From: Methanolobus profundi
Lineage (GTDB): Archaea > Halobacteriota > Methanosarcinia > Methanosarcinales > Methanosarcinaceae
Assembly: GCF_900114835.1 (NCBI RefSeq)
Contig: NZ_FOUJ01000001.1
Span: 186,001 to 250,000 of the forward strand
Length of the DNA: 64,000 nucleotides
Direction: 5' to 3'
The notes beneath the pieces are model-generated. The model saw only the letters and a program-made list of their open reading frames with translations. It ran no database searches and was not told where the DNA came from. The stretch's first letter is position 1, and each line of letters starts with the position of its first letter. The position numbers were made by a program, and so were the translations under genes. Shown in pieces: positions 20,193-28,700 of the stretch.

Positions 20193-20888
20193 ATGAACAA
20201 CGAAGAAATTCAAAAATTAGGAAAAGAACTTAAAGACGTCCTTAATATCGGCACTTCCCCGGTTGCTGTACATCTGGTAAAGGTGGATGAGGATATTCCT
20301 GAAGATATCCCTCACATAGGTGAGACAACAAGACACTGCCAGATGGTAGATAATGTTAGAAGGCTGCACAACCAATTCTACGCTACACTGGATGATCAGA
20401 TGTGCAAGGGTGGAGCATCCGTAATGGGTCTGGCTGAGATGAGCCCAAAGCTCAAATCCGGTGAGGTCTACTATAATCTCAATCACTTTGCTTCCCTTGA
20501 AGCTGCAAAGGCAACCATGGAAAAGGTGCCCATGGTAGATGCAAATTCCATCAAAGCTGTGCTATATGCTCCACTTGAGAAAACAACTTTCCTTCCTGAT
20601 GTCATTCTCGTTATCGCAAAGCCTAAGATCGTGATGGAGCTCTCACAGGCCCTGCTCCAGAAGAACGGTGGTCGTGTGAACGCAGGATTTGCCGGTAAGC
20701 AGAGTGTCTGTGCAGATGGTGTCTCATACCCATACCTCACAGGTGAAGCAGGTGTTACTATCGGTTGCAGTGGCAGCAGAAAGTACACAGAGATCCAGGA
20801 TGAGGAAATGATAATGAGCGTACCTGTGGACATGTTGCCTGCTCTTGTAGAGTCTGCAAAAGCCATGTTCGGCACTTACGCCTGCTAA
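20193..20888 (+). CDS. DUF169 family protein (copy 1)
   Basis: The 231-residue protein starts at ATG 20193 with GGAG 8 nt upstream; an ATG further 5' lacks such a site. It matches DUF169/COG2043, with an opening of the type LGTSPVAVHLVK, then RHCQMVDNVRR, CKGGASVMGL and GVTIGCSGSRK. Four cysteines in these motifs are shared with the second copy at 22.3 kb, which suggests a metal or Fe-S site. The function of the family is unknown. Confidence 0.8.
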   Translation: MNNEEIQKLGKELKDVLNIGTSPVAVHLVKVDEDIPEDIPHIGETTRHCQMVDNVRRLHNQFYATLDDQMCKGGASVMGLAEMSPKLKSGEVYYNLNHFASLEAAKATMEKVPMVDANSIKAVLYAPLEKTTFLPDVILVIAKPKIVMELSQALLQKNGGRVNAGFAGKQSVCADGVSYPYLTGEAGVTIGCSGSRKYTEIQDEEMIMSVPVDMLPALVESAKAMFGTYAC

Positions 20889-20901
20889 TATCTATATTTT
20901 C

Positions 20902-20944
20902 GATCCGGCACTTTTGAAGCGCTGGATCTCTTTCTCTTTTTAGT
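20902..20944 (+). terminator. Terminator after DUF169 copy 1
   Basis: GATCCGGC (20902-20909) and GCTGGATC (20921-20928) pair with one G-U, followed by a T-rich tail. Confidence 0.6.
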
Positions 20945-20956
20945 TCAACTCGGATA

Positions 20957-21619
20957 TCATAGTTCAATAGTATATCCGGCAAATATCTTTACGAAATTAT
21001 CCGGGTACATTTTCCTGATAACATCCTTGTGTGATGTGCAGTGCCCTGCTCCTATCATTTGCATGTCTTTGAACACGCCATATTCCTGACTGTCGTGTAA
21101 CCCGCCGAATATGCCTGATATATTTCCAAAAGAAGATGCAGCTTCGGTTATCGCCAGCATTCCAGGGTGTGCACATCCGGTGACTATGTAATTGTCATTT
21201 TCCGATCTAAGGACAAGGGCTTGTTCTTTTGTTTGATCTCCGAGTTCCCCTGTTGTATACACATTCCTGCATATTTCTCCGGGGTCTTTCATTCCATAAA
21301 GTTTCCCATTGATCCGTGTTGCCATCTCTTTTTTCAGATTAGCTGAAAAACTTGAGGGAACATACAGGTCCACATCCGCATTCCTGTTCAAAAAAGTTGT
21401 CACGCCACCAATATGGTCCCAGTGCTGATGTGAAAGAACAAGTGTATCGATACTTTTAGGATCAATAGATAATTTCTCCATGTTATCAAGAAGTGCATGC
21501 CCATCCCATCCGGTGTCGAACAGGATGTTATTATATCCTGTTTCTATAAGGCAGGAGAATCCCCATCCTTTCTGGAGACCTTCTTTTGCTTCATTATCAT
21601 AAACAATGGTGAGTTTCAT
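20957..21619 (-). CDS. Metallo-beta-lactamase fold hydrolase (COG1237 type)
   Basis: The 220-residue protein starts at ATG 21619 with GGAGG 6 nt upstream. The metal-binding motif LSHQHWDHIGG lies near 67-77; further ligands are probably the histidine in ITGCAHPGML and a C-terminal HCTSH. Members of this group include proteins linked to tetrahydromethanopterin-type synthesis, but the substrate here is unknown. It follows the DUF1847 gene by about 14 nt on the same strand. Confidence 0.8.
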   Translation of the reverse strand: MKLTIVYDNEAKEGLQKGWGFSCLIETGYNNILFDTGWDGHALLDNMEKLSIDPKSIDTLVLSHQHWDHIGGVTTFLNRNADVDLYVPSSFSANLKKEMATRINGKLYGMKDPGEICRNVYTTGELGDQTKEQALVLRSENDNYIVTGCAHPGMLAITEAASSFGNISGIFGGLHDSQEYGVFKDMQMIGAGHCTSHKDVIRKMYPDNFVKIFAGYTIEL

Positions 21620-21633
21620 AATTATCCTCCGTT

Positions 21634-22206
21634 TCACTCATCAATTCCAAATGTCTTCTTGAGGTAATAGCCTGAATATATGGCTCCTGCCGGATTATGG
21701 GCAAGTACCCTGTCCTTTACTATGAATGTGGTAACAGGGGCTGCTGAATGTTGTGTGAACAGGATATCATGGCCGATGCACAATCCTATGATCAGGTTCA
21801 ATTGTGTATCCTTCTTCCCGAGAAGCATTGCCTGTCCTATGGGGTTGCATGTGGGGTCAAATGAGTCTGGATGGAGTTTCTCAAGTCCGTAGTCTTCTTT
21901 GCTGATGGCAGAGACCTTACAGCACACAGAGTATACATCAAAGTATTTTTCCAGTATCTTCTGAATGACCTCAGCTTCCTTTTCCATGCCTACACAGAAA
22001 GCAAGTCCAAGTCTTTTGTATCCCATTTCCTTTGCGTAGAGGATTATCTCTTCAAGTCTTGTCTTTTCCATGTAGTAGCGGGCTTCTATGGCAGCAGATG
22101 TTCTCATGGATCCGAGCTCGTCGCCTGAATAGTCTATATTATCAGTTATGCCTGCACAATCCTTGCCTTCCCGGCACAGTTTCTCGTCACAGCGTGCACA
22201 TTTCAT
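21634..22206 (-). CDS. DUF1847 cysteine-rich protein
   Basis: The 190-residue protein opens with MKCARCDEKLCREGKDCAG, a cysteine cluster likely to bind zinc or Fe-S, and continues with the DUF1847/COG4887 pattern (GYKRLGLAFCVGMEKEAEVI, CCKVSAISKEDYG, DPTCNPIGQAMLL, GLCIGHDILFTQHSAAPVTTFIVKDRVLAHNPAGAIYSGYY). The function is unknown; it recurs in anaerobes with redox or C1 genes. It precedes the MBL hydrolase in a two-gene unit. TCATATGA repeats overlap its promoter. Confidence 0.82.
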   Translation of the reverse strand: MKCARCDEKLCREGKDCAGITDNIDYSGDELGSMRTSAAIEARYYMEKTRLEEIILYAKEMGYKRLGLAFCVGMEKEAEVIQKILEKYFDVYSVCCKVSAISKEDYGLEKLHPDSFDPTCNPIGQAMLLGKKDTQLNLIIGLCIGHDILFTQHSAAPVTTFIVKDRVLAHNPAGAIYSGYYLKKTFGIDE

Positions 22207-22213
22207 TTAGAAC

Positions 22214-22261
22214 CACCATATGACCTGAAGTATGTCATATGAGTGCGTATATTCTCTCATA
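22214..22261 (-). promoter_or_regulatory. Three ATATGA palindromic elements in the DUF1847 promoter
   Basis: CATATGA at 22214-22220 and the perfect 8-bp palindrome TCATATGA at 22232-22239 and 22254-22261 lie within 60 bp of the start codon. A minus-strand TATA-like CATATTTATC lies beside the last copy. The arrangement suggests a multi-site operator. Confidence 0.5.
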
Positions 22262-22310
22262 TGAGATAAATATGTGGTAGCCGGGGATATGTGCTTAAAA
22301 AAGTTAAAGG

Positions 22311-23009
22311 TCACTTCTGTCTGGCTTTTTGCATTGGACCTTCATGTATCTTTTCAAGAGCCTCTATCATTATCTCCAGGTTCTTGTAAGGTATGCCTGC
22401 TATCATCTCTTCATTCTTGATATCTGTTGACCTGCGACATCCGTAACATCCAAGGCTCATGTTCATGTTACCGGTAAGCATCGGGATTATTGTGGAGTCC
22501 ACGCATGTTGCCTGGAAGGCTGCTGTACTGAAAGCCTGTCTTCCTCCTTCAAAGAAGGTTGCTGCGGGAATAAGCCAGTAAAGTGTTTCAGGAAGGTCTA
22601 CCAGTATTACCACGTCAGGGTCGATCTTGAAATTCTTCAATGGTCCGACAACAGTAGCTATTGTGCTTTCCTCTTCGATCTCAGAGCGTTGGCATATCAT
22701 GTTCGCAGCAGCATCGGAACAGTCGAACATGCCAAGATTGGAATGGAATTCTCCTTCTTTCACTTTATCTGGTATTGGTACCAGGCCAAGACTGGAAGCT
22801 CCGACCACACACGCATGTTTCTCAGCAGGGATCACAAAGGATTCTCCTTTCCTTGCTCTCATTATTGACTGACAGTGCCTGATGTTCTTATCAGGCTCGT
22901 TGAACCCTTCAGGGATCTTCTCTCCTTTCTTAATGACTTTTACTGCAACTGGTTCATATTTGAGGTCAAGGATCTTTTCGAGCTTCTCTGCTATCTCATA
23001 ATTGTCCAT
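22311..23009 (-). CDS. DUF169 family protein (copy 2)
   Basis: The 232-residue paralogue of the 20.2 kb protein keeps the same cysteine motifs: RHCQSIMRARKGE, KHACVVGASSLGL, and NMSLGCYGCRRSTD, which gains an extra Cys. GAGGAG precedes the ATG. Two copies flanking a DUF1847-MBL pair imply a common pathway. Function unknown. Confidence 0.8.
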   Translation of the reverse strand: MDNYEIAEKLEKILDLKYEPVAVKVIKKGEKIPEGFNEPDKNIRHCQSIMRARKGESFVIPAEKHACVVGASSLGLVPIPDKVKEGEFHSNLGMFDCSDAAANMICQRSEIEEESTIATVVGPLKNFKIDPDVVILVDLPETLYWLIPAATFFEGGRQAFSTAAFQATCVDSTIIPMLTGNMNMSLGCYGCRRSTDIKNEEMIAGIPYKNLEIMIEALEKIHEGPMQKARQK

Positions 23010-23401
23010 GTTTTCAACTCCTCAAAACCTTTATCAGTGTTATTTTGGTCTGGCAGATATTTACTGCTTTCGATGTATTCTCTGTTATTACTGGTGTTTC
23101 CTGACTACTAGATTATTGCATCATATGCAAAAATAGTTACTATCATATTTTATTTAGTAAATTAAGTACTGTCATTTGATATTGTTTTTAATGCATTATT
23201 TATGTAACTATATTGTTTAGTATCTGTTATTTTTACTAAAGCAGTCTATAATATATTATATTTCTATGAAATCGCCGTCAATCATGCATATTTTTCTCGT
23301 ATATATAATGTCTCTATATTTGGATACTATGCAACTTTATAAAAAGATTATATATTATGAAGTGATACTAATTTTTAGTTGCGTTTAAGGAGGTAGCTAA
23401 A
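23010..23401. other. 392-bp AT-rich divergent intergenic region
   Basis: No gene is visible. CTTTATAAAA near 23335 is the likely TATA box of the first CobW gene, which has an AAGGAGG Shine-Dalgarno. Several long A/T runs occur. Confidence 0.6.
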
Positions 23402-24676
23402 ATGGATGCAATAATAATAGGTGGATTTTTAGGAAGCGGAAAGACAACTACGGTGATAAATGTAGGAAAGGAACTGGCTCACAGGGGTCATACGGTTGCG
23501 ATCATAGTGAATGAGGTAGGGGAAGTAGGTATCGATGGTGACCTTATATCCAAATATGGACTTGATGCAAAGGAAATAACAAATGGATGTATTTGCTGCA
23601 CACTGAAGCTCAATATGAAAACAACACTTGCCGAACTTTACAACTCATACGATCCGGACTATGTCATAGTGGAGCCATCTGGTATTGCTTTTCCAAATGT
23701 TATCAAAAGAGAGTTCGAGCTTATGAATTTCGGTGATAATGTAAGGGTTGCACCTCTTGTTACGCTGATTGATGGAAGTCGTTTCAAGGACATCATGAGA
23801 TCTGTAAAAGTGTATGCACTAAGACAGATAGAGGATGCGGAGATCCTTGTAGTTAACAAGACAGACCTGATCGATCCTATCAGGATACCTATCCTTGAAG
23901 AATCTGTCCAGCAGTTAAATCCAAAAGCTAAGGTCCTTAAAATGTCTTCTGAACCTGAAGATGAAGGTTTCATCGAATTGATGGGTATTGTTGTTCCACA
24001 GAGCAGTGATGATGAGGCTATCGATAAGGAAACTTCCAGTGGGCAGGTCAATGAAACTGTAACAGTTCAGGAAACAGGGCATGATGATGGATCGGACCAT
24101 TCTCACCTTCATCACACCCATTATGATAGCGAAAGCTCGGGACTTGCTTCTTATGCTAATGATTACAGGATACTTGAGGAGGATATTGATGCTGAAACTG
24201 CAAGGGAGATCATAATGGAAATTGCAGAAAGGATCAGGTCTGATGTAATTGTGTCCAGCCCTGAATTTGTAGGTCACATCAAAATGTTCCTTGAAACCTC
24301 TGAGGAGACTGTGAAAATAAGCATAACTTCCTATTCTGAAAGACCTGCAGTAAATGTTATACCAACATCTGCTCATTCAGGTCTTCGTTTTAAGATACTG
24401 ACGGCGGTTTCAGGAATAGATGAGGATCGTCTTATCCATCTTGTTGATGAGGATGTGGAGTACATATTTGGCAGCAGGGATATGCTGATACAGCGGCTTC
24501 ACGGATTGCATGATCACGATCATCACCATGACCATCACCACGATCACGATGATGACCACCACGACCACGATCACCATAATCACAAGCATTTGCATGAGGA
24601 AAACGATGCTATGGATGATATCTACGACCATGACCTGACAGCTTGTAGTACAGGAGATAGTGACTGTTTGCTCTGA
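23402..24676 (+). CDS. CobW/G3E-family P-loop GTPase with histidine-rich metal-binding regions
   Basis: The 424-residue protein has the G3E GTPase domain: P-loop GFLGSGKTTT at 8-17, the CxCC metal motif GCICC at 62-66, an EPSG switch and VVNKTD. Two metal-rich segments follow: HDDGSDHSHLHHTHYD (about 225-245) and a long His/Asp tail (about 365-400). The family delivers metals (Zn, Ni, Co, Fe) to target enzymes with GTP hydrolysis. The metal here is not shown; next to chelatases and DUF169/DUF1847 genes, cobalt, nickel or iron are candidates. Confidence 0.88.
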   Translation: MDAIIIGGFLGSGKTTTVINVGKELAHRGHTVAIIVNEVGEVGIDGDLISKYGLDAKEITNGCICCTLKLNMKTTLAELYNSYDPDYVIVEPSGIAFPNVIKREFELMNFGDNVRVAPLVTLIDGSRFKDIMRSVKVYALRQIEDAEILVVNKTDLIDPIRIPILEESVQQLNPKAKVLKMSSEPEDEGFIELMGIVVPQSSDDEAIDKETSSGQVNETVTVQETGHDDGSDHSHLHHTHYDSESSGLASYANDYRILEEDIDAETAREIIMEIAERIRSDVIVSSPEFVGHIKMFLETSEETVKISITSYSERPAVNVIPTSAHSGLRFKILTAVSGIDEDRLIHLVDEDVEYIFGSRDMLIQRLHGLHDHDHHHDHHHDHDDDHHDHDHHNHKHLHEENDAMDDIYDHDLTACSTGDSDCLL

Positions 24677-24708
24677 TCTTTAAGTGATCTGGATCGGTGG
24701 AGATAGAC

Positions 24709-25776
24709 ATGAAAATAGTCATCATCAGTGGTTTTCTTGGTAGCGGAAAAACAACTTCTGTTATCAGAATAGGAAAATACCTGCAGAGCAAAGGACTGAG
24801 TGTTTCAGTGCTTGTTAATGACATTGGGGATGTGGGTGTTGACGGACATGTCATCAGTGAGAACGGACTGAGATCAAAGGAAATACCTAGAGGTTGCATC
24901 TGCTGCACCCTGAAGTATGCCCTGGAGGGAAATATAGCACTAGTACAGGCACAATATGATCCCGATATCCTCCTGATCGAACCAACAGGAGTTGCATTTC
25001 CCCTAAGGATCAAGGAGCAGATAGAGATGATCGATCTCGGACCTGAGGTCACTATGGGCCCGATCATAGGAATGATCGATGGAAGTAAATTTGAAGACCT
25101 GATGCAGCATTCCGGTGATGCAATTACAAAACAGATAGGGAATGCAGATATTATACTGCTTAACAAAAAAGACCTGTTAAGTACATCAAAGCTGTCTGAA
25201 TTTGAAACTGCTATAAAGGAAATAAATCCAGATGCTGAATTTCATTCTCTCTCACTTAAATGGGATGATGGTTCATTTGCAGTTTTTGCAGACTCATTTT
25301 TCAGAGATCTCAAGGAGGATGTGCATTCTTTTGGAATGGATCATGATGCTGCAGGATCTGCGGGAACAGACGGGTCAGTTCAGTGTGACCCCTGTACTTC
25401 TGAAACAGATGAGTTCAACCACTTCAATGTAAGCAGTTATGCTGATTCTTATTCTATAAACAGTTCCACTGAGCTGGGTCACTTAACTCATCTGGCTCTG
25501 GATCTGATCGGATCGATCAAGAAAAGAGTAATGGAATTGAACCCTCGGTTCCTGGGGCACCTTAAAATGTTTCTCCACACAGGGTCTGTATCTTTTAAGA
25601 TCAGTGTTACCTCCTACCAGGATCAACCAGAGATTGAATATCTCAGCATCGGAGCCAATGAGGGTGGCAAAATGACCGTATTTGCAGCAGTAACTGATAT
25701 TACACGCGATGATATTGCAGACATAATAGACGATGCTGTCAGTTCAAGGTCAGGCCAGTTCGGGATAATTGTCTAG
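24709..25776 (+). CDS. CobW/G3E-family P-loop GTPase (second, without His tail)
   Basis: The 355-residue paralogue of the preceding gene starts at ATG 24709 with GGTGGAG 6 nt upstream; a GTG at 24697 lies inside that Shine-Dalgarno. It keeps GFLGSGKTTS, GCICC, EPTG and LLNKKD. It lacks the histidine-rich tail but has a short cysteine-bearing insert (GSVQCDPCTSE, about 225-235). The two probably form a metallochaperone pair, one of which can store metal. Confidence 0.86.
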   Translation: MKIVIISGFLGSGKTTSVIRIGKYLQSKGLSVSVLVNDIGDVGVDGHVISENGLRSKEIPRGCICCTLKYALEGNIALVQAQYDPDILLIEPTGVAFPLRIKEQIEMIDLGPEVTMGPIIGMIDGSKFEDLMQHSGDAITKQIGNADIILLNKKDLLSTSKLSEFETAIKEINPDAEFHSLSLKWDDGSFAVFADSFFRDLKEDVHSFGMDHDAAGSAGTDGSVQCDPCTSETDEFNHFNVSSYADSYSINSSTELGHLTHLALDLIGSIKKRVMELNPRFLGHLKMFLHTGSVSFKISVTSYQDQPEIEYLSIGANEGGKMTVFAAVTDITRDDIADIIDDAVSSRSGQFGIIV

Positions 25777-25853
25777 AGTTGAATGTTCATGTGGAGCTTC
25801 CCATTAAAGAATGAAAACCCATTACTTCCATTCCAGTGTAACTCAATGGCTTT

Positions 25854-26285
25854 TCATTCTTTTTTCCAGGACATGAGATATTCCATGAAGCCTGAATCCT
25901 CATTAGGCTGTTCTTTCTTTACTCTGAAACCATTCTTCGTGTAAAACCTAATAGCCATCTTATTTTCTGAATATACTCCCAATTCCAGATCAGAACAGAG
26001 TGACTTGCAATGGTCCAGCAGTCTCCTTCCGACCCCTTTTCCCTGATATTCTTCCATGACGAACAATGCACCAATGAAATGGTCATCAATTACGCCTATA
26101 AAGCCCCTGATCACATCATCTTCTACATAGACAAATGTCTCAGACATCGGCAGATATTCCTCTTTGACAACATTATAGTTATCCAGCCAGTATTTTTCAG
26201 GTATGAAGCTGTGTGCTCTGATATTGGTCTTCAGCCAGATATCCATAATTGTATCCACTTCGAAGCTTTCAAGTTCCCTGATCAT
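25854..26285 (-). CDS. GNAT-family N-acetyltransferase
   Basis: The 143-residue protein has a single GNAT domain with acetyl-CoA motif A (VMEEYQGKGVGRRLLDHCKSL, about 80-100) and a C-terminal YTKNGF motif. The substrate is unknown. It stands alone between the CobW pair and the chelatases. Confidence 0.85.
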   Translation of the reverse strand: MIRELESFEVDTIMDIWLKTNIRAHSFIPEKYWLDNYNVVKEEYLPMSETFVYVEDDVIRGFIGVIDDHFIGALFVMEEYQGKGVGRRLLDHCKSLCSDLELGVYSENKMAIRFYTKNGFRVKKEQPNEDSGFMEYLMSWKKE

Positions 26286-26353
26286 GTATTCACATCAATG
26301 ACTAAAAACAGGATTCTTTGACCGACTAGAACAAAAAAAGAAAAGAATGGGTC

Positions 26354-26366
26354 GTGTCAGTGGCAC
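26354..26366 (-). terminator. Terminator of the first chelatase gene
   Basis: GTGTCAGTGGCAC forms a near-perfect hairpin immediately 3' of the stop, with a U-rich tail on the minus strand (an A-run at about 26333-26346 on the plus strand). The same arrangement follows the second chelatase gene. Confidence 0.5.
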
Positions 26367-26369
26367 AGC

Positions 26370-26765
26370 TTAAAGAGCTTCCTGAACTCTCTTGAAAATA
26401 AGGTCTGCAATGAGCTTATCGCTGCCAAGCGGTTTTGCATAGGTGATCTTTACTTTTTGTCCGTCGAACTCTATCTCCCCTTCGTTCGTCTCCTGATCAA
26501 GATCGAGGAACTCCGGTATGTCTTCTGTGAGGTGGACTCCCGATGCCATGAATACAGGTGTTGCAGCTATTTTAGTCACACCTGTCCCTTTAAAGGACAT
26601 AAGTGCCTCCCTGACCTTAGGCTCACTGTGCTCTACGAATCCTACTTTAATGATGTATCCCGGATGCTTCTCTGTTATCATATCAGCGATCGCAGTGACC
26701 ACCTGGTTGTTGTATGGTAATCTGCTGCCGTGCCCAATGATCAAAATGCCTATTTTTTCACTCAT
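26370..26765 (-). CDS. CfbA/CbiX-type sirohydrochlorin metal chelatase (copy 1)
   Basis: The 131-residue protein starts at ATG 26765 after AAGGT. It has the small single-domain CbiX form with metal-site histidines in [11 protein letters not shown] (His12) and [11 protein letters not shown] (His78). CfbA inserts Ni into sirohydrochlorin for coenzyme F430, or Co for cobamides. A close paralogue lies 580 bp away. This copy has [13 protein letters not shown], where the other has [13 protein letters not shown], so it carries an additional histidine near the active site. Confidence 0.88.
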
Positions 26766-27347
26766 GATATACCTTCTATGTCTTCTTTCCGGAAATATCA
26801 TTAGTAAGAAAGTATATATCTCTTTGCTAAACGAACATACTTGATCGAGATAAATTTGTGCTTTGTAGGGAATCTTAATTTTTGTGACCCTTACGATTGT
26901 GCGTACCTGGCATGAGCGTGGGATAAATTATGATCTATTATTACCGGGATGTAGAAAATGAATAAAGAACAGATTATCATATGCATCTTTCTCGGATTGT
27001 GCCGGCTTCGCCGGACCCTCCGTGATGATCTTAGTTATTCATGAGTTCCTATTTGCCAACCCTGATAGTCCTCGTGTTCTTGTGTTTCTGATAGCTCAAC
27101 AAGAATTATCGAAAACAAAAACGGTGCAACCATCCGCCGCAGGCGGCACGTTCCTTTACTGCCATCCTGAAGACTATTGAAATAATGTAGTTATTGAAAA
27201 TAGTGGCCATCAAAGTTGTGATCAACAAGATCTTCTACGGGGCCGTGATTCGTAAACAATTCCTGTTGTAAGATAGAACGAAAAGATTTCCAAAAGGATA
27301 TTCAGGTAAAAAAAGAATGAAAAAGAGTACTGTGTCAATGACACAGT
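26766..27347. other. 582-bp region between chelatase paralogues with two GC-rich hairpins
   Basis: No convincing gene is present. CCGGC-TTC-GCCGG at 27002-27014 and CCGCC-GCA-GGCGG at 27034-27046 plus 100 (27134-27146) are 5-bp G/C stems with 3-nt loops in otherwise AT-rich DNA. A 28-codon ATG frame runs 26958-27044 through the first hairpin but lacks a proper ribosome site. It may be an RNA or the remnant of the duplication that made the two chelatases. Confidence 0.45.
27329..27347 (-). terminator. Terminator of the second chelatase gene
   Basis: ACTGTGTCA and TGACACAGT form a perfect 9-bp inverted repeat around one base directly after the stop codon, followed on the minus strand by a U-rich tail. 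Confidence 0.65.
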
Positions 27348-27743
27348 TTACAGGACTTCCTGTGCTCTCTTAAAGATGAGGTCTGCAATGAGCTCGTCAC
27401 TGCCAAGAGGCTTTGCGTAGACGATCCTTACTTTGTTTCCGTCAAGTTCGAGCTCTCCTTCATTTGTCTCAGGGTCGAGCTTGAGGATCGCAGGGATATC
27501 CTTTGTGATGTGGATTCCTGATGCAAGGAATACTGGTGCTGCAGCGATGGTTGTTACTCCGGTTCCTTCAAAGGACATGAGTGCCTCTTCGACTGTAGGC
27601 TCGCTGTTCTCCATGAATCCTGCCTTTACAACATATTCAGGATGAGCTTCTTTGATCATGTTAGCGATCTCTGTTACTACCTGGTTGTTGTATGGTAATC
27701 TGCTGCCGTGTCCAATAGCTAAAATTCCGATTTTTTCACTCAT
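27348..27743 (-). CDS. cfbA: CfbA/CbiX-type sirohydrochlorin metal chelatase (copy 2)
   Basis: The 131-residue protein is closely similar to the 26.4 kb copy over its whole length. His12 ([11 protein letters not shown]) and His78 ([11 protein letters not shown]) are kept. The two genes are in the same orientation, each with its own terminator, consistent with tandem duplication. A split between nickel (F430) and cobalt (corrinoid) use is possible but not shown; the symbol is the better guess for a methanogen. Confidence 0.86.
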
Positions 27744-27866
27744 AATGTAACCTTCTTTGTAAAATATAGTAATAATCTCAATAGTATTTGTGTTACTAAC
27801 GGGGGTAGTAGGGTGTTTATGGGATATAATGTTTTTTGTTTTGCAATGGGTTCACAGTGAGAAGCT

Positions 27867-28700
27867 TTAATTCTCCTCTGTCAGGACTCGTTTTTCCCCT
27901 GCATATACATACAGATTTCTTCCCCTCACAAAAGCCACCAACGCGATTCCAGCTTCTTCTGCCAGTTCCACAGCCTCACGCACCGTAGCACCCTTACTTG
28001 CAATAAGGGGAATACCTGCATTCACAGCCTTTGAAACCATGGTGGATGCAAGTCTACCAGTGGTCACCAGTGCACATTCTGAAAGCTCGGTCCCATTCAT
28101 CAGAGCCTTGCCTACAACCTTGTCCACGGAGCATGCTCTTCCCACATCCTCGCAGAAGAAGAGTATCTCTCCATGTTTGTCGCAGATGATCGACGTGTGT
28201 GCGCCTCCGGTCCTGTGCCAGATCCTTCCGACCTCTTTAAGCTGGCCTACTGCACGGATGATGGCATCGGGTGTGAATTGAGTATTGGAATTGTTGTGTC
28301 TGACAACATCCTTGCGATATGATGTTGTTCCGCATCGTTCAAGATGTGTCAGTTCTTCAAGTTCAGGAGTATTGATTCCAATCTCACAGAAGACCGATCT
28401 GTCTTCGATCTTAATTGGATCAACTTTAGTATCAGGTTCAATGAATCCCTCGCAGACGAGAAATCCCAGTGCAAGCTCTTCCAGTTCCTGTGGGCTTGCA
28501 AAAAAAGTGGTTATGTGGATGTTATTCACGAAAAGGTCGAACCTTTCCTCGATGATAACATCCACCTCTATGTGTTGTTTACTGTTATCAGTGATCTCCA
28601 GGCACTTCATGGGGGTATAAAAGGGAGAGGATATATCGTCCTCCTCCTTTCGAAAGACTTGCGTCTTCCTGTTCCTTTCTGAGTACCAGTTCTCACTCAT
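27867..28700 (-). CDS. fdhD: FdhD-like sulfurtransferase for Mo/W-bis-pterin cofactor
   Basis: The 277-residue protein shows FdhD features: ERFDLFVNNIHITTF, LALGFLVCEGFI, GGAHTSIICDKHGEILFFCEDVGRACSVDKVVGKAL and TTGRLASTMVSKAVNAGIPLIASKGATVREAVELAEEAGIALVAFVRG. The usual CxxC loop is reduced to ERCGTTSYRKD, with one cysteine. FdhD passes sulfur from a cysteine desulfurase to the bis-MGD cofactor of formate dehydrogenase. Its start overlaps the fmdB stop (ATGA), so translation is coupled and the likely client here is FmdB. Confidence 0.88.
   Translation of the reverse strand: MSENWYSERNRKTQVFRKEEDDISSPFYTPMKCLEITDNSKQHIEVDVIIEERFDLFVNNIHITTFFASPQELEELALGFLVCEGFIEPDTKVDPIKIEDRSVFCEIGINTPELEELTHLERCGTTSYRKDVVRHNNSNTQFTPDAIIRAVGQLKEVGRIWHRTGGAHTSIICDKHGEILFFCEDVGRACSVDKVVGKALMNGTELSECALVTTGRLASTMVSKAVNAGIPLIASKGATVREAVELAEEAGIALVAFVRGRNLYVYAGEKRVLTEEN

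Follow-up and report, generated by a model that had tools for sequence, protein, structure and literature searches.

Genes and proteins of the locus

The window analyzed here is a 64-kb stretch, from 186001 to 250000 on host contig C7, of the 3.1-Mb genome of Methanolobus profundi, and the genes under study encode two DUF169 proteins, a DUF1847 protein, a metallo-beta-lactamase (MBL)-fold hydrolase and a pair of COG0523-type GTPases, CobW1 and CobW2. Reading frames and Pfam scores, every one of which exceeds its curated cut-off, place these genes where an original prediction for the same DNA had put them. The DUF169-1 gene (20193-20888, plus strand; Pfam DUF169 226 bits, cut-off 27), a paralogue with a transcription unit of its own, meets the MBL gene (20957-21619, or to 21637, minus strand; Lactamase_B 50 bits, cut-off 22.7) tail to tail. 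The latter closes a minus-strand unit that begins with the gene for the four-cysteine protein DUF169-2 (22311-23009; Pfam DUF169 219 bits) and continues with that for the nine-cysteine DUF1847 protein (21634-22206; Pfam 172 bits, cut-off 25), successive genes being 104 and 14 bp apart. On the plus strand, cobW1 (23402-24676; Pfam cobW 142 bits) is followed after 20 bp by cobW2 (24697-25776, with an alternative ATG at 24709; 135 bits, cut-off 20.7 for both), which is probably co-transcribed with it. At least three transcription units are present (DUF169-1, DUF169-2/DUF1847/MBL and cobW1-cobW2), in agreement with the several units expected earlier. The DUF169, DUF1847, MBL and CobW genes are two abutting, divergently transcribed modules and not one locus.

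Both CobW translations contain the P-loop GxxGxGKT (GGFLGSGKTT and SGFLGSGKTT) and the CxCC metal-binding motif in the form GCICC (NGCICCTLK and RGCICCTLK). CobW1 has 30 histidines in all, 20 of them within its last 80 residues, which bears out an earlier count of about 20 in the tail of one of the pair. Assignment to the cobalamin-biosynthesis CobW family (TIGR02475) is rejected, as the two proteins score 83 and 72.6 bits against a cut-off of 332. In a tree of CobWs, CobW1 groups with the His-tailed tandem CobWs of a Methanosarcina-like genus (g13) with support of 97/96, and CobW2 forms a separate long-branch clade. CobW1 is a probable zinc metallochaperone. Extra, partly shortened cobW1-like genes adjoin cobW1 in three Methanolobus genomes (L052 9679-10275, L205 7258-7668 and L210 1039-1752), and the operator described below is present at those of L052 and L210.

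The reading that we favor, with moderate confidence, is that cobW1-cobW2 is a zinc-starvation metallochaperone operon that abuts a separate DUF169-2/DUF1847/MBL cassette, relocated from a nifX-nifX-minD-minD operon and likely concerned with metal-sulfur centers.

The predicted operator upstream of cobW1 and the case for zinc

The predicted operator is a 17-bp element with the pattern TTTGG-N7-SCAAA, located 83 bp upstream of cobW1; when cobW1 upstream regions are aligned, they show the palindrome TTTGGTATAATACCAAA. A 19-base form of the pattern, which had the wrong spacing, gave 2 matches against 4.9 expected, and the 17-base form was adopted in its place. The window copy, operator 1 (TTTGGATACTATGCAAC, 23319-23335, no strand assigned), is a predicted DtxR/ZntR-type repressor site and has the top score of the whole window, 12.9 bits, under a position weight matrix (PWM) trained on nine dtxR/znuA sites only. 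Directly 3' of it stands TTTATAAAAAGATTATATATTA, and the TATA-like element TTATATATTA is read at 23348-23357 on the plus strand, just 3' of the operator. Because the operator directly abuts a TATA-like sequence, a bound repressor would, on a reading of the letters alone, sit against the archaeal promoter. A weak candidate second operator (ATTGCATCATATGCAAA, 23115-23131, no strand assigned; 9.4 bits) lies between the divergent genes, and in most relatives a further site, generally of lower score, is located at -284 to -316 relative to cobW1.

The same operator precedes zinc-uptake-type genes of the host. On host contig C16, znuA and the dtxR-type gene (L225 3286-3708, beside znuACB) carry TTTGGTATGGCACCAAA and TTTGGTGTATATGCAAA, located 38 and 64 bp upstream, respectively. 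Near-matches precede dtxR-type and/or znuA genes in Methanolobus-type and Methanococcoides loci, and in several other loci searched no such palindrome was found before these genes. At cobW1 the position of the site is fixed: it lies at -79 to -93 of all 15 cobW1-type genes from 13 Methanolobus genomes, with scores from 6.8 to 19.6. Sites of at least 12 bits occur in 12 of these 15 upstream regions versus 0 of 196 for twelve other neighboring gene sets, CobW2 included, a count that includes two overlapping CfbA queries and some genomes in duplicate. For cobW2, no operator of its own was found at 9 bits or above in 12 upstream regions. DUF169-2 upstream regions yield 2 of 19 at 12 bits or above, both in loci with divergent cobW-type genes, and in Methanolobus loci that have no cobW genes the region before DUF169-2 scores at most 5.4 bits; membership of DUF169-2 in the zinc regulon is rejected on this account. 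Operator sites near cobW are found in other genera too (L211 8483, L213 14375 and L218 8505).

Several counts weigh against a meaningful operator. The seed of the PWM had originally come to light in alignments of the cobW1 upstream regions, and the dtxR/znuA promoters were therefore not searched blind. Over the same 430 kb, matrices with shuffled columns average 9.5 matches (3 to 21) versus 29 for the real one. The host genome has 14 matches to the exact pattern, spread over 11 places, versus 7 for a reversed control, which amounts to only a modest genome-wide enrichment. In the window, sites of at least 8 bits number 7 against 6.6 expected, and the window operator is itself imperfect, with a deviating last base. 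An alternative is that the genes are chance neighbors, grouped through slow rearrangement in Methanolobus, and that the operator is a coincidence. In its favor are the inheritance of much of the gene order and a short, AT-rich motif. Against it stand the fixed placement of the site before all 15 cobW1-type genes, the lack of such a site at the other genes tested and the recurrence of the DUF1847-MBL neighborhood, variously ordered, in both archaea and bacteria, and we hold this alternative to be highly improbable.

The metal is indicated by the genes that share the operator. Host ZnuA (Pfam ZnuA 249 bits) carries a loop rich in histidine and acidic residues, of the kind found in zinc-binding ZnuA proteins. 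A point against zinc is that DtxR regulators and ZnuA-type transporters can serve iron or manganese, the ZnuA family also covering other metals, and a relative of the host regulator in L128 matches iron-dependent repressor families. The metal sensed by the DtxR-type regulator, and likewise served by the CobWs, could then be iron or manganese. The ZnuA loop, the His-rich tail of CobW1 and the prediction, although a prediction only, of an archaeal regulator controlling zinc uptake (available sections of Haas et al., PMC2770081) make this unlikely. We infer zinc from the identity of znuA, its position beside the dtxR-type gene, the CobW1 tail and the 2009 ZntR prediction. For the CobW pair, the metal delivery originally proposed has good support, and the shared dtxR-znuA operator points to zinc and not to cobalt or nickel.

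Under the favored zinc reading, the operon would be switched off when zinc is plentiful by a DtxR-family repressor of the archaeal 'ZntR' kind, encoded beside znuACB and bound to the 17-bp operator. As zinc falls, the repressor would leave the operator and both CobW GTPases would be made. The His-rich tail of CobW1 may gather zinc, which GTP-dependent transfer through the CxCC site could then load into chosen client enzymes.

A perfect operator copy (TTTGGACGAGATCCAAA) is located on host contig C11 at L202 10442-10458, between a cobW paralogue and mtaC-mtaB. It precedes mtaC by ~640 bp, and the genes upstream of it are those of a RACo-type activase and the CobW paralogue. Zinc control of the methanol methyltransferase through this copy is possible.

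Gene order in relatives and the DUF169/DUF1847/MBL genes

Gene order was compared in 40 stretches around DUF1847 from 37 genomes of the Methanosarcinaceae, including 15 stretches from Methanolobus (L041-L055). DUF1847-MBL adjoins DUF169-1 in 12 of the 15 Methanolobus stretches, among which DUF169-2 is found in 10 and cfbA on the far side in 9. Six of the 12 have the cobW pair (L041, L046, L048, L049, L050 and L052), and it is absent from five with an otherwise identical block (L042, L044, L045, L047 and L055), and cobW1 also occurs where DUF1847 is missing or elsewhere (L204-L208 and L210). A lack of co-occurrence between DUF1847 and CobW had been named beforehand among the findings that would refute the original prediction. 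By counts read by hand over 27 genomes, DUF1847 is present in 9 of 13 genomes with CobW1 versus 11 of 14 without it (Fisher p=0.68).

These data bear on the single metal/C1 cofactor locus first proposed, in which the CobWs deliver metal to the DUF169, DUF1847 and MBL proteins or to a corrinoid protein. All 13 Methanolobus genomes with cobW1 do have a DUF169 gene no more than ~2 kb away from it, as does G068 of another genus. Genomes without cobW carry the same DUF169 genes at the corresponding place, so that the proximity reflects conserved position and not independent co-occurrence; DUF169 co-occurrence is also uninformative because DUF169 is present in 110 of 111 family genomes (MBL relatives in 94 and DUF1847 in 84). 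A link to corrinoid proteins is suggested by the g13 CobWs that group with CobW1, which lie near activase and mtaCB-like genes, and by the host CobW paralogue on contig C11, which stands between a RACo-type activase gene and mtaC-mtaB and so has the neighborhood of archaeal COG0523 subfamily 13. Among the ten Pfam-scanned genes at 20193-28700, no corrinoid-protein gene and none of the corrinoid methyltransferase or activase neighbors that characterize subfamily 13 were found. The DUF169/DUF1847/cfbA order exists without cobW, and DUF169-2 has no operator in the loci that lack cobW. With CobW1 and DUF1847 failing to co-occur, the single locus is rejected, and what probability we leave to it is small.

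Past cobW2, the minus strand carries in turn a gene for a GNAT protein, the two CfbA genes already named in the original prediction (26370-26801 and 27348-27743), both of which score above the cut-off of the F430_CfbA model, and FdhD; the frames that follow are taken, from their sequence, to be fwd genes. Whether cobW is present or not, cfbA-fdhD-fwd stands next to the same DUF169 and DUF1847 genes, so the CfbA neighbors reflect inherited gene order, and CfbA/F430 is rejected as a functional partner. With CobW1 and DUF1847 not co-occurring and DUF169-2 devoid of the operator where cobW is lacking, a common metal/C1 theme is not supported, and the original interpretation holds in part. The CfbA nickelochelatase genes are in tandem in the window, and a single cfbA was seen in some Methanolobus loci (L042 and L044). 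An Rfam scan gave a tRNA as its sole match.

Of the three families that had been described as sharing conserved cysteines and having no known function, two answer to this description, and the MBL protein belongs to a known hydrolase superfamily, with its HxHxDH metal motif read as SHQHWDH. An alignment of seven DUF169 proteins, the others 16-36 percent identical to the first, has seven invariant columns, four of them cysteine. The alignment of 42 DUF1847 proteins has nine invariant cysteines, four in an N-terminal CxxC-x4-C-x5-C segment. The invariant cysteines, together with the occurrence of DUF1847 beside genes for ferredoxin-ATPase and NifX in relatives, make an iron-sulfur (Fe-S) or metal role plausible, and both are likely metal or Fe-S proteins. 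The Fe-S theme proposed earlier is thereby retained for these two families and dropped as one that unites them with the CobW pair.

Structure models of both proteins are confident (pLDDT 90 for DUF1847 and 89 for DUF169), and that of DUF1847 has a predicted alpha/beta fold. The best Foldseek matches of DUF1847 are Dph2 entries (6bxm, E 3e-3), weak and partial, with a VIA-align Z of 8.4 over 89 residues; this Z is within 1 of unrelated Rossmann-like rows, so that DUF1847 is tied with many such folds. The fold search with DUF169 gave no useful match (best Foldseek E 0.5, VIA-align Z 4.6), which does not show a new fold, and a sequence search of the PDB with DUF1847 and DUF169 gave no credible match. 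The functional part of the favored reading is weakened in that no structure match supports it. In the literature searched, the name 'DUF1847' was not found and 'DUF169' appears, in the accessible text, in passing mentions only.

Some further occurrences of these families were recorded. A second, diverged DUF1847 type is located beside a DUF169-2 relative in Methanosarcina-like genera (L061, L065, L067 and L072-L075), the L072 copy being without the C-terminal KDR/HN motif. The host has a third, divergent DUF169 gene (L203 8915-9541, contig C15) that adjoins the O-phosphoseryl-tRNA synthetase (SepRS) gene, and a DUF169 gene near SepRS is mentioned for other archaea in the accessible part of PMC8762117. 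A NifX-domain gene (L208 11549-11971) lies between cobW1 and DUF169-2 in G044, and another is upstream of DUF169-2 in L121. By Pfam, the frame at L208 5436-7358 has F420-hydrogenase-beta and sulfite-reductase domains and is not MinD.

The origin of the minus-strand cassette was traced in a survey of 80 DUF1847 loci from named genomes, of which 73 were scored; in the other seven the DUF1847 frame was not kept by open-reading-frame picking. Neighbors were identified by Pfam on representatives, and the counts ignore kinship. Several genomes are present twice in the material of the analysis (for example L055/L121, L043/L125 and L041/L123). Within 3 kb and on the same strand, the 73 loci have MBL (26), MinD-type ferredoxin ATPase (23), NifX-domain (13), radical SAM (11), NifU (6), DtxR (6) and DUF169 (4) genes. 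Counting against a metal-sulfur setting, 37 of the 73 have no MBL, MinD, NifX or radical SAM gene within 7 kb, including 19 in which both flanks extend for 3 kb or more. The order nifX-nifX-minD-minD-DUF1847-MBL, with small variations, occurs in Methanococcoides, Methanohalophilus and M. halotolerans, and in the last of these dtxR-znuACB comes next. Methanocellales and ANME relatives have the order MBL-radical SAM-DUF1847, and minD or nifX adjoins DUF1847 in Thermoplasmata and in bacterial metagenome-assembled genomes. Other archaeal families have a DUF364/DUF4213 'putative heavy-metal chelation' gene (L117 4353-5060) and MinD-type genes accompanying MBL, radical SAM and DUF1847, with similar frames in L113 and L120 (Pfam identity from L117 only). 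No description of this anaerobe gene neighborhood was found in print under the name DUF1847.

The simplest account is that DUF1847-MBL relocated within Methanolobus from the nifX-nifX-minD-minD operon; the tree placement fits this, and the host operon remains without DUF1847-MBL. In the DUF1847 tree, the window gene is nested among Methanolobus genes near that of M. halotolerans L128, where the full old operon is kept. On host contig C16, nifX-nifX-minD-minD is kept ~10 kb from znuA and ends without DUF1847-MBL. No radical SAM gene partner was found in the host (best match 25 percent), and in L121-L125 a radical SAM gene is kept between MBL and DUF169-1. The DUF1847-MBL part of the cassette would have departed from an orange-protein-like operon and become linked with DUF169-2 in Methanolobus, and the cassette most likely acts on an Fe-S or other metal-sulfur center in anaerobes.

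A broader and speculative extension, which we think somewhat improbable, is that DUF1847, MBL, radical SAM, paired MinD ATPases, NifX and sometimes DUF169 constitute an unrecognized pathway of metal-sulfur assembly or repair in anaerobes. In this scheme the four-cysteine protein DUF169 would hold a cluster and have a fold that the PDB does not yet contain. The Methanolobus locus would be a version that has moved and lost some of its parts and now stands divergently beside a zinc-starvation operon, such that zinc status and metal-sulfur work may be coupled through the shared intergenic region with its two operators.

The analysis provides, at the level of sequence, a concrete zinc-regulon prediction with a named operator for these archaea, in which COG0523 regulation was found discussed in one 2009 paper only (PMC2770081). 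It also ties two widespread families of unknown function, DUF1847 and DUF169, to defined cysteine sets, and the orange-protein-like neighborhood of DUF1847 points to anaerobic metal-cluster assays over generic screens.

Comparison with known systems

Among proteins of solved structure, the window MBL protein has sequence relatives in the MBL-fold entry 7dck (E 5e-38) and Tm1679 (3h3e, E 8e-11). For the DUF1847 model, the best Foldseek match is the [4Fe-4S] enzyme Dph2; membership of that family is not claimed, because its VIA-align score does not stand apart from unrelated Rossmann-like folds.

The closest comparison for the CobW pair is with MA4381/MA4382 of Methanosarcina, which are likewise COG0523 GTPases of the Methanosarcinaceae. 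In the sections available of PMC2770081 (Haas et al., 2009), the only paper in the literature searched that discusses MA4381, this protein is predicted to be linked to znuABC through the DtxR-like regulator 'ZntR'; the window pair shares the operator of the host dtxR and znuA genes as a predicted sequence site. CobW1 belongs to the same supported clade as the g13 His-tailed tandem CobWs, whose genes we infer to be MA4381/MA4382. Unlike these, the window pair is located beside DUF169 and cfbA/fwd genes and not beside mtaABC or an activase gene, and CobW2 belongs to its separate long-branch clade.

The operon of the DUF1847-MBL relatives resembles the orange-protein (ORP) operons of Desulfovibrio as given in the accessible part of PMC6345978, where its paired MinD-type ferredoxin ATPases compare with Orp3/Orp4 and its two NifX-domain proteins with Orp8. 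The ORP components in that part of the paper do not name DUF1847, DUF169 or MBL, and, unlike in the ORP operons, DUF1847-MBL of the window stands with DUF169 only, NifX and the paired MinD proteins being absent from its unit. By analogy, the likeness to the ORP operons may serve as a lead on function and not as membership.

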